Below, piece after piece: positions 14,764-58,600 of a stretch of 64,000 nt of DNA; the stretch's first letter is position 1; the number at the start of each line of letters is the position of its first letter. The notes under the pieces are model-generated. The model did not search any database. It was not told where the DNA came from and was given only the letters and a program-made list of their open reading frames with translations. Source of the stretch: Macrophomina tecta (Eukaryota; Ascomycota; Dothideomycetes; Botryosphaeriales; Botryosphaeriaceae); contig JAKSGN010000038.1 of NCBI GenBank assembly GCA_024180945.1, positions 1,488,001 to 1,552,000 on the forward strand, in the 5' to 3' direction. The translations under genes and the position numbers were made by a program.

Positions 14764-16629
14764 ATGAAGGCTGCCGCCTGCTTATCGCTGCTGCCCGTGC
14801 TGGCGTCAGCTTCCCCGGTCTTCAACACCGGCTCCATCCACAACGACGCCGCCCCCGTCATCTCCTCGGTCAACGCCAAGGAGGTTCCTAACTCGTACAT
14901 CATCAAGTTCAAGAGCCACGTCAAGCACGAGGATGCCTCGGCCCATCACTCGTGGGTCCAGGAGATCCACGCCTCGAAGGAGAACGAGAGGACCGAGCTG
15001 CGCAAGCGCTCGCAGTTTCCCTTCGCCGACGAGGTCTTCGAGGGCTTGAGGCACACCTACAACGTCGCTGGCGGCTTCTTGGGCTACTCTGGCCACTTCG
15101 ACGAGGACGTCATCGAGCTCATTCGGAGACACCCTGATGTAAGTCCACTGTAACATGCGACCGCCCGACACCAGACGGCGAGCCGGGCAAGCCCGTAATG
15201 CCACCACCGACACCAGCACCCTCCCTTCCATCCATCCATCTCCCGCGAGCTTGTTGAGCGACAATCATGTCATTTAACGCCCCTTTCATATACACGTGAC
15301 TCGGTTTGTTACGTCTCATCACGCCATACTGACGAGCTCGGTCGTTAGGTCGAGTACGTGGAGAAGGATTCCGAGGTCCACACCATGAAGGATGACTACG
15401 AGGTCGAGAAGAACGCCCCCTGGGGTCTCGCCCGTATCTCCCACCGCGAGAGCTTGAGCTTCGGTACCTTCAGCAAATACTTGTATACTGCCGACGGCGG
15501 AGAGGGTGTCGACGTCTACGTTATCGACACGGGCACCAACACTGAGCACGTCGACTTCGAAGGCCGTGCTCACTGGGGCAAGACCATCCCTCAGGGCGAT
15601 GTTGATGAGGACGGCAACGGCCACGGCACTCACTGCTCCGGCACGGTTGCCGGCAAGAAGTACGGTGTTGCCAAGAAGGCCAACGTCTACGCCGTCAAGG
15701 TCCTCCGCTCCAACGGCTCTGGTACCATGTCGGATGTTGTCAAGGGCGTTGAGTACGCTGCTGAGCAACACGCCGCCCAGGTTGCCGCTGCTAAGTCTGG
15801 CAAAGGCAAGAAGGGCTTCAAGGGTTCCGCTGCCAACATGAGTCTGGGTGGTGGCAAGTCCACCACTCTCGACCTCGCTGTCAACGCTGCTGTCGACGCC
15901 GGCATTCACTTTGCTGTCGCTGCTGGTAACGACAACGCCGACTCTTGCCGCTACTCTCCTGCCGGTGCCGAGAAGGCCGTCACCGTCGGTGCCTCTACTC
16001 TCGCTGACGAGCGTGCCTACTTCTCCAACTACGGCAAGTGCAACGACATCTTTGCCCCTGGCCTGAACATTCTCTCCACCTGGATTGGCAGCAAGTACGC
16101 TACCAACAAGATCTCGGGTACCTCCATGGCCTCTCCCCACATTGCTGGTCTACTTGCCTACTTCCTCTCTCTCCAGCCTGCCTCTGACTCGGCCTACTCT
16201 GTTGCCGAGATCACCCCGGCCAAGCTCAAGAAGCAGCTCATCAACGTTGCCACCGAGGGCGCTCTCACCGATGTTCCCAGTGACACCACCAACGTAAGTA
16301 CATCCCAGCTTGTCTTGCCTCGCCCAGATGCTAACAAAAACACGTAGGTCCTCGCCTGGAACGGTGGTGGCAAGTCCAACTACAGCGAGATCGTCGCCGA
16401 TGGTGGCTACAAGGTCGCTAGCAAGTCTATTGATATCTCCCTCCCCTCGATGGAAGATGTCGAGGAGGAGGTTGAGACTGTTGGTCGCAAGTTCCACGCC
16501 GGCACCGAGAAGCTCGAGTCCAAGATCGAGAAGCTCGCGGAGAAGTTCGAGGACTTCGTTGCCGATGAGATGGAGGAGTTCTTCGAGGAGTTCAAGCACC
16601 ACCGCGCTGCTCAGCGCGCCTCCATGTAA
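14764..16629 (+). CDS. pepC: Vacuolar subtilisin-like serine protease (cerevisin/PepC type)
   Basis: Exons 14764-15138, 15349-16293 and 16348-16629 (introns 210 and 54 bp) give 533 aa, the size typical of fungal PepC/Alp2 proteases. The order is a signal peptide (residues 1-17), an inhibitor I9-type propeptide around SYIIKFKSHV, then a peptidase S8 domain. The catalytic residues are visible: Asp185 in VIDTGTN, His217 in GHGTHCSGT and Ser384 in GTSMASPHIAG. The tail after the last intron is acidic and charged (EEVETVGRKF...), as in vacuolar homologues. These enzymes mature by autocatalytic removal of the propeptide and act in vacuolar protein turnover during starvation and autophagy. Close homologues are known as fungal allergens. 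The first intron is long for this locus, but its borders (GTAAGT and TTAG) keep phase. Confidence 0.95.
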
Positions 16630-57659: not shown

Positions 57660-58419
57660 GGCTGGGCCAACTTTCCAATCGCGGAAACTCTGGATGCGGG
57701 CTTACACAAAGGGTGCGGGTAGGACAGTTAAATAGAGTGACGAGATGAAGGAATGCTGTTCCAAATGGCATATATGGACTACGAAAGACTGTTATGCAGC
57801 TGAGAATGTCACTTACGGAAGAATTCGAGCATTTCGCATCAGTACCTCGCTTCAAGGACGCTCTGCAAATGTCAAGTTGCGGGATTATTTCCGAACAAGG
57901 AGATACAATAGAACAAGGGAGCTCGTGGAAAATGCCAGGAACTTGCCGATGCGGAATCTCATTAAAGGAATGCCTAATTCGCAACAACGTGCAGACAATG
58001 GAGAATGGTCCGGCAGTCACGAGCCTTAGCGCAACCCAACCGAACGGCGACAGGTTTGCTCCTTTCGTGAGCATGGTGCACATGAGCTATCCCTGCGGAA
58101 GTTGAGGGAAGTGCATGAACAGAGCAGGCACCTTGAATGGGAGCATTGTCAGCGTCACCTCTAGGGCGGTTCAGTGCACTTCTGCTGCAATACGTGACAT
58201 GTGCATCAAACGGGAAAGGAGGAAAGGGAGAAGGTGACGTAAGGGAGGGGCCGGAGATCGGGCCCTTCGGGTGCGGAAGAAGCTCGGCATGTGGAGGTCC
58301 GTGAGGATAAATATTTGCACACTACCTACGCGCGCTCCGAATGATGCCTGGAAAATTTTTGCCGTTCGGTCTGGTTATTTCGTCTTAAGCAACGCAGGAC
58401 GGCGCGGTTTTCACAACAG
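57660..58419. other. Intergenic, promoter of the CBM18 gene and 5' flank of a tRNA
   Basis: About 760 bp. A minus frame of 222 codons overlapping the CBM18 gene start is out of frame with it and has no domain. ATAAATATTT near 58307 lies about 105 bp upstream of the tRNA start. No other gene is seen. Confidence 0.45.
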
Positions 58420-58426
58420 GGGAAGA

Positions 58427-58437
58427 TGGCCGAGCGG
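58427..58437 (+). promoter_or_regulatory. Pol III box A
   Basis: TGGCCGAGCGG matches the TRGYNNAnnGG box A consensus within the D arm of the tRNA gene. It lies 5' of the 55-nt insert, so the A-to-B spacing is enlarged to about 126 bp. Confidence 0.85.
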
Positions 58438-58444
58438 TTATGGC

Positions 58445-58499
58445 GTAAGTTACCACAGTATAACGTCGTCCACCTCAACACCATCTAACAGCATCACAG
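58445..58499 (+). other. mRNA-type (GT-AG) intron candidate inside the tRNA
   Basis: These 55 nt start with GTAAGT, contain CTAAC at 58485-58489 (branch A at 58488, 11 nt before the end) and end with CAG. That is the signal set and size of the protein-gene introns in this window. Exact removal joins D-stem position C25 to G26 and the anticodon stem, giving a normal tRNA-Leu. The position (25/26) is not that of eukaryotic nuclear tRNA introns. Whether the spliceosome, the tRNA endonuclease or neither removes it cannot be read from DNA. Confidence 0.7.
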
Positions 58500-58511
58500 G
58501 CTAGTTTCAGG

Positions 58512-58541
58512 TCTTCTGAAAAGAGTCCCGAAGACAGGGTT
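58512..58541 (+). other. Canonical tRNA intron (after position 37)
   Basis: A 30-nt intron lies one base 3' of the anticodon, the standard site in eukaryotic nuclear tRNAs. Its CTGAA (58516-58520) is the exact complement of the anticodon-loop bases TTCAG (58506-58510), the usual extended pairing that presents the intron to the tRNA endonuclease. Confidence 0.8.
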
Positions 58542-58563
58542 TACTAGTTGGGAAACCTTCGTG

Positions 58564-58574
58564 GGTTCGAGTCC
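58564..58574 (+). promoter_or_regulatory. Pol III box B
   Basis: GGTTCGAGTCC matches the box B consensus GGTTCGANTCC within the T arm of the tRNA-Leu(CAG) gene. Confidence 0.9.
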
Positions 58575-58593
58575 CACTCTTCTCATCATCATC

Positions 58594-58600
58594 TTTTTTT
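58594..58600 (+). terminator. Pol III terminator (T7)
   Basis: A run of seven T residues on the sense strand starts nine bases after the tRNA discriminator base, a standard Pol III termination signal. Confidence 0.85.

Follow-up and report, generated by a model that had tools for sequence, protein, structure and literature searches.

Ten short inserts in nine nuclear tRNA genes of Macrophomina tecta are, judged from their sequences, very probably U2-type, mRNA-type spliceosomal introns, and they appear to form a class of such introns in the Pol III-read nuclear tRNA genes of this genome. One of them lies in a tRNA-Leu(CAG) gene within the window, by which we mean the whole 64,000-nt stretch of contig that was analyzed; the eight other interrupted genes encode four initiator tRNAs (iMet), two tRNA-Ala(TGC), one tRNA-Arg(TCT), and one tRNA-Pro(TGG), so that tRNAs of five kinds are represented (Table 1). 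The inserts measure 52 to 58 nt and are found at sites 9/10, 10/11, 11/12, 24/25, 25/26, and 55/56.

Table 1. Features of the tRNA-Leu(CAG) gene (window positions) and interrupted tRNA genes elsewhere in the genome (contig positions)
Feature	Position	Strand	Basis or remark
tRNA-Leu(CAG) gene with two introns	58420..58585	+	Sequence and C7 paralogue
Exon 1: acceptor 5' strand, D arm to position 25	58420..58444	+	Same letters in C7 paralogue
A box TGGCCGAGCGG, intact in the Leu gene	58427..58437	+	Sequence
55-nt mRNA-type (GT-AG) intron, positions 25/26	58445..58499	+	Missing from C7:1994279-1994389; splice signals
Branch-site motif CTAAC, A = 58488, 11 nt before insert end	58485..58489	+	Sequence
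Exon 2: G26, anticodon stem 5' strand, CAG 58508-58510, G37	58500..58511	+	Positions by reading
Canonical 37/38 tRNA intron, 30 nt, same in C7 paralogue	58512..58541	+	Borders by reading; ARAGORN puts intron elsewhere
Exon 3: remaining anticodon arm, variable arm, T arm, acceptor 3' strand, discriminator A	58542..58585	+	
B box GGTTCGAGTCC	58564..58574	+	Sequence
T7 run, Pol III terminator-like	58594..58600	+	Sequence
iMet gene	C6:2524775-2524902	+	Insert at 24/25
iMet gene	C18:577510-577639	-	Insert at 24/25
iMet gene	C35:755762-755888	+	Insert at 24/25
iMet gene	C37:855559-855685	-	Insert at 24/25
tRNA-Ala(TGC)	C5:3539296-3539436	+	Insert at 9/10
tRNA-Arg(TCT)	C2:1075105-1075230	-	Insert at 11/12
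tRNA-Ala(TGC), L158	G000:C27:314057-314249	+	GT-AG inserts at 9/10 and 55/56 (T loop) plus 37/38 intron
tRNA-Pro(TGG), L159	G000:C37:1612844-1612985	+	Insert at 10/11

Direct reading of the Leu gene showed an insert that begins with GTAAGT, contains CTAAC, and ends with CAG, in a gene whose A and B boxes agree with the consensus of these elements. No tRNA was called in the window by ARAGORN (bacterial default) or by Rfam at the gathering score; with long introns allowed, ARAGORN called the Leu gene with the wrong anticodon. The signature GTA[AT]G-N32-40-CTRAC-N5-9-YAG occurred five times on the two strands of the window, the Leu insert included, compared with 0.38 occurrences per Markov-shuffled window (maximum, 3; 60 shuffles), and by our own estimate a random 55-nt insert would show it at both exact borders with a chance of less than 1 in 10^6. 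One of the five, a 54-nt segment located where a subtilase frame ends (positions 16294-16347), has the same splice geometry, including the position of the branch site, and this and other single examples of protein-gene introns in the window fit the size range of 49 to 75 bp given in the original prediction. For the mRNA introns of the window we used single examples only; joining of open frames in this G+C-rich sequence gave mostly frames that we took as spurious.

The borders of the Leu insert are fixed by a paralogue. A search of the genome (54.1 Mb, 37 contigs) with window positions 58415-58600 (186 nt) returned four matches: apart from the window's own copy, one gene on contig C7 was hit in two pieces, and a Leu gene on C5 matched more distantly. 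In the C7 gene (G000:C7:1994279-1994389, minus strand), all 111 tRNA-gene letters (25 + 86) are identical to those of the window gene, the 37/38 intron included, and exactly the 55 nt at 58445-58499 are missing. One G is common to both insert borders and the cut can be slid by one base; GT-AG ends result in one register only. The original prediction had placed the borders and signals correctly, as both re-reading and the paralogue indicated, and the Leu stems close as claimed when 58445-58499 is set aside. Its view of the insert as an mRNA-type intron gains support from the exact intron-free paralogue and from the signals shared by 10 inserts in nine genes. When the 300-nt flanks of the two genes were compared, the local scores were 17 and 18, whereas shuffling gave scores as high as 26 and 24 (50 shuffles a side); the flanks are by this measure no more alike than shuffles and are unrelated. 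The insert itself matched nowhere else at E values of up to 10 (186-nt query, 3 candidates scored). A donor or introner family may nevertheless exist in the genome; the shared G at the Leu borders is not accompanied by any longer target duplication, and the 10 insert bodies show no likeness beyond that of shuffled sequences. The simplest route to the Leu copy would be spliceosomal reverse splicing into a tRNA, with the copy then returned to the genome, and the pairing of the window gene with its intron-free C7 twin would illustrate directly the birth of new introns.

A third Leu(CAG) gene (C5:1418039-1418150, minus strand) has no such insert, so that one of the three Leu(CAG) genes found is interrupted. 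Given the two uninterrupted genes on C7 and C5, the supply of Leu(CAG) does not hinge on the window copy, which could be dispensable or silent. The original prediction had named as damaging to it an uninterrupted functional tRNA-Leu(CAG) elsewhere combined with a silent copy here; the first half of that combination is present in these two genes, and the second is no more than allowed for by their existence.

What ARAGORN called "tRNA-Cys" at locus L002 is actually an iMet gene, interrupted after position 24 by GTAAGT...CTAAC...TAG. When the whole genome was searched with a pattern for the iMet anticodon arm, three mismatches being allowed, it matched at four places, all of them exact (reversed control, one match), and all four iMet genes thus found carry a GT-AG insert after position 24: four different sequences at one site. 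A BLAST query that included the iMet exons yielded 11 matches, with iMet at those four loci only; the others were in the Arg and Ala genes and at four places of Lys(CTT) genes. The anticodon-arm pattern is blind to an iMet gene with a 37/38 intron, but the BLAST query should not be. Each of the four genes has A54 in the T loop, described in passages of PMC3978253 as a hallmark of initiators. Since each iMet gene found is interrupted, the supply of start-codon tRNA would depend on the spliceosome, and, if this is true, the start of translation is tied to splicing capacity.

All 10 inserts have the extended 5' splice-site consensus and the terminal AG of U2-type introns: the 5' end is GTAAG in nine and GTATG in one, and the 3' end is YAG throughout. 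A CTRAC branch motif lies near the 3' border in every insert (CTAAC in seven, CTGAC in three), its A 10 to 13 nt from the end. Three inserts were chosen by signal, namely, that of the window, by the original prediction, and the Pro insert and the first insert of the C27 Ala gene, by a pattern demanding GTAAG and CTRAC. The remaining seven came to light by way of the tRNA sequence itself, with ARAGORN or with patterns for the anticodon or the B box, or because they sit in a gene that had already been identified, and the signals are present in all seven. The insert bodies, in contrast, resemble one another only at the level of shuffled sequences (mean identity, 0.55 versus 0.54 shuffled; highest, 0.67 versus 0.75; 45 pairs), and the common signals therefore look as if they were kept by selection. 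Searching for insert-signature patterns near tRNA letters gave no enrichment in counts (19 matches versus 19 in the reversed control and, for a second pattern, 14 versus 24); each case therefore rests on the whole tRNA around it and not on the pattern. The 19 matches comprised the known Ala gene on C5, eight that were inspected as full sequence, and ten that were judged from the matched letters. Six of the eight inspected matches proved to be protein-gene or other DNA, and two were new tRNA genes. The 14 matches of the second pattern, judged from their first 80 letters, held no clear new case.

Other intron classes account poorly for these features. None of the inserts lies at 37/38, the position of canonical nuclear tRNA introns. 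Introns of 52 to 58 nt are too short to be self-splicing introns of group I or II, and the window, which was scanned with Rfam, gave no match to either group at the gathering score. A different reading is that the D- and T-arm inserts are tRNA-type introns removed by a tRNA splicing endonuclease that is less strict about position, in the way known from archaea and from the red alga Cyanidioschyzon merolae. The alga resembles our case in having several introns per nuclear tRNA, with D-, anticodon-, and T-arm introns within a single tRNA according to passages of PMC9602550, and the Ala gene on C27 has that look here; anticodon-loop introns are, moreover, common in this genome, with an intron call in 64 of 83 distinct nuclear ARAGORN calls. 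However, the algal introns are ascribed to cutting by the bulge-helix-bulge endonuclease (PMC3978253, in the portion available), and in our inserts mRNA signals are present and the strict motif is absent. The original prediction had proposed that the fold be checked for a bulge-helix-bulge at both junctions; four pairs of intron letters 2 to 5 with letters 2 to 5 of the next exon, the central helix in its strict form, were found in 0 of 10 inserts, that of the window included (best, three of four pairs). Relaxed endonuclease cutting would also leave unexplained why GTA[AT]G, CTRAC, and YAG recur in all 10 inserts with fixed spacing; no ARAGORN-placed intron both starts with GTRNG within two letters and ends with AG; and passages of PMC4033280 describe the yeast endonuclease as strict for 37/38. 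We therefore consider that reading extremely unlikely and retain spliceosomal introns as the preferred explanation. Both kinds of intron occur together, with a 37/38 intron present in the interrupted Leu (by reading), Ala, and Pro genes, and the inserts differ from the canonical introns of these same genes in site, in signals, and, presumably, in enzyme.

The interrupted genes look capable of giving sound tRNAs. With the inserts left out in silico, ARAGORN folded all nine into a cloverleaf, as expected of introns whose removal restores the product, and the anticodon was right in eight; the Leu form was called Gly(ccc), which its 37/38 intron probably explains, and the Arg form as folded takes in letters of the artificial flank. 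Among the three distinct mature forms of iMet, four stem pairs vary, and another four vary between the Ala copies; all eight are compensated double changes. Four of them (iMet 6:67 and 7:66; Ala 5:68 and 7:66; Sprinzl numbering) join exon 1 to an exon after the insert. These observations bear on whether the interrupted genes could be dead copies or assembly errors, with uninterrupted working genes serving the cell. Uninterrupted Leu(CAG) copies do exist, the control boxes of the C27 Ala gene are split, the T stem of the Pro gene is odd, and our survey can miss copies, as the BLAST search with iMet exons missed the C27 Ala gene. Nevertheless, no single assembly error would place four different inserts at one site in four of four iMet genes, every variable stem pair is compensated, and the splice signals persist while the intron bodies have diverged. 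Taken together, these points make dead copies or misassembly very unlikely. Because the BLAST search missed an Ala gene, the counts of one Arg(TCT) and two Ala(TGC) interrupted genes are lower bounds.

Two features of individual copies were noted. The Ala(TGC) copies L099 and L158 have in common a U6-U67 acceptor mismatch (20 of 21 pairs form), and the neighboring pairs differ by compensated changes. In the T stem of Pro(TGG) L159 (CCGCT/TGCGG), both position 53 and position 61 are U; this gene, whose nearest downstream T run is 50 nt away, is perhaps a decaying copy.

The promoter elements are affected differently from gene to gene. The iMet introns sit between the A and B boxes. In four genes (both Ala genes, Arg, and Pro), an intron cuts the A box, and the second intron of the C27 Ala gene cuts the B box; Pol III recognition should therefore weaken unless something makes up for the loss. 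The inserts of the Ala, Arg, and Pro genes bring their YAG ends near the place of T8-R9-G10, and the T-loop intron of the C27 Ala gene begins GTAAGTTCGAAAC, in which TCGAAAC after GTAAGT creates a B-box-like GTTCGAAAC where the true B box is split. On a post hoc view, the intron letters near T8-R9-G10 and GTTCGAAAC may replace the split boxes. The Arg gene has ATATATAAATTAT upstream at -39. AT runs were found upstream of eight of the nine interrupted genes, compared with 49 of 82 distinct ARAGORN calls; such runs are common here anyway, and as promoter support for the interrupted genes they are weak. A run of at least four T residues starts 2 to 14 nt downstream in seven of the nine genes and 48 to 50 nt downstream in the C37 iMet and Pro genes; among ordinary tRNA genes here, a T run likewise starts within 15 nt in 58 of the 82 distinct calls.

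Spliceosomes normally meet Pol II RNA, and where the A and B boxes are cut, as in the C27 Ala gene, the internal Pol III promoters look damaged. Both facts would fit tRNAs that are parts of Pol II transcripts, with the spliceosome acting in a Pol II setting and the tRNA cut out afterward. We regard this as unlikely: it sits poorly with T runs that start within 14 nt in seven of nine genes and with boxes that are whole in the Leu gene and merely separated by the intron in the iMet genes, and TATA-led, TFIIIC-independent transcription of tRNA genes, described in part of PMC3978253, would offer a Pol III route where the boxes are split. Splicing of Pol III transcripts remains our preferred explanation.

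Pol III would then make the pre-tRNA, as the boxes and T runs suggest, and the spliceosome would remove the GT-AG intron, whose signals are observed, from the nuclear pre-tRNA, as with fission yeast U6. Only after this removal would the D arm (or, in one Ala gene, the T arm) fold, and end trimming would follow; a 37/38 intron, where present, would be cut by the tRNA endonuclease after the spliceosomal step. Both the endonuclease cut at 37/38 and end trimming need folded D and T arms. The D- and T-arm introns of C. merolae are also thought to go first (PMC9602550, in part). Because both kinds of intron occur in the Leu, Ala, and Pro genes, maturation of these tRNAs would couple the spliceosome with the tRNA endonuclease. 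In the textbook division of labor, the spliceosome takes care of mRNA introns and the endonuclease of tRNA introns; here, some tRNAs would need both, and the cell probably needs its mRNA-splicing machine for some of its tRNAs. The wider reading we think likely, with somewhat less confidence than the class assignment itself, is that spliceosomal introns colonized Pol III tRNA genes, that all initiator tRNA passes through the spliceosome, and that one Ala gene calls for mRNA-type splicing twice and for endonuclease cutting once, its split boxes maybe replaced by intron letters. If this is true, Pol III RNAs can be spliceosome substrates even when they are very short, their first exon measuring 9 to 25 nt plus any 5' leader.

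Small mRNA-type introns in U6 genes occur in other fungi besides fission yeast. The fission yeast intron, thought to derive from reverse splicing (passages of PMC10484740), likewise interrupts a short Pol III RNA and is small and of mRNA type; U6, however, belongs to the splicing machine, whereas here the hosts are tRNAs of five kinds, and the one U6 gene found in this genome has no intron. Spliceosomal introns in the nuclear rRNA genes of lichen fungi are a second parallel: they, too, interrupt a structural RNA made by a polymerase other than Pol II, and yeast splices them out of Pol I rRNA transcripts according to passages of PMC8527467; those hosts are large rRNAs made by Pol I, unlike the tRNA genes described here. 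Among the matches listed in the open-access literature, titles and the beginnings of abstracts gave no indication that spliceosomal introns had been described in tRNA genes, and the stem "spliceosom" is absent from the main text, as far as available, of PMC4090602, PMC4033280, and PMC8450103, the first two of which are reviews of tRNA genes or introns. We accordingly rate the intron class as known and the host class, tRNA genes, as new.

Genes of this kind are missed by tRNA finders: ARAGORN, with introns of up to 400 nt allowed, made no call for seven of the nine and gave the wrong anticodon for two, and the only ARAGORN calls that hold the mRNA-type signature are those two, the C6 iMet gene and the window gene. 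About 90 nuclear tRNA genes, nine of them interrupted, were seen in what was a partial survey covering 101 of 113 rows of the B-box pattern and a homology search in which 63 of 1,323 candidates were scored, with 60 matches. Thirteen of the 60 matches fall on contig C17, which we take to be mitochondrial. Eighty stretches were chosen from these lists; the C17 rows, rows whose sequence was already available, a number of repeat-like rows, and a few of the tRNA matches were set aside. Distinct nuclear ARAGORN calls number 83, or 82 by another keying (one possible double count).

The survey also brought up several sequences of separate interest. At G000:C18:567545-567643, CTCCTCCGTGGCGCAATTGGCTAGCGCGTCTGACTGTTATT looks like a tRNA-Asn(GTT), an isoacceptor otherwise missing from the partial survey. 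By our reading, genes for Phe, Tyr, Trp, Ile(AAT), Leu(AAG), Lys(TTT), and elongator Met are also absent from what that survey brought up. In L147 (about 340 to 420), a tRNA-Val gene is closely preceded by ACGACGGTGGCGCAATTGGTTATCACAGCAGCCTGATATT, a fragment resembling a tRNA. Two B-box-like stretches on C12 and C21 of G000 (L116 and L117) recur nearly letter for letter and are perhaps part of a mobile element; L117 also holds a tRNA-like call of doubtful identity. A copy of the rDNA, much of which reads N, begins at G000:C29:3197115 (L166 and L167), and a second copy is found at 3213693, near the contig end. The second copy has four conserved 18S blocks and otherwise reads N, so that the view of rDNA introns covers part of the 18S; the spacing of the four blocks is presumably about that of yeast.
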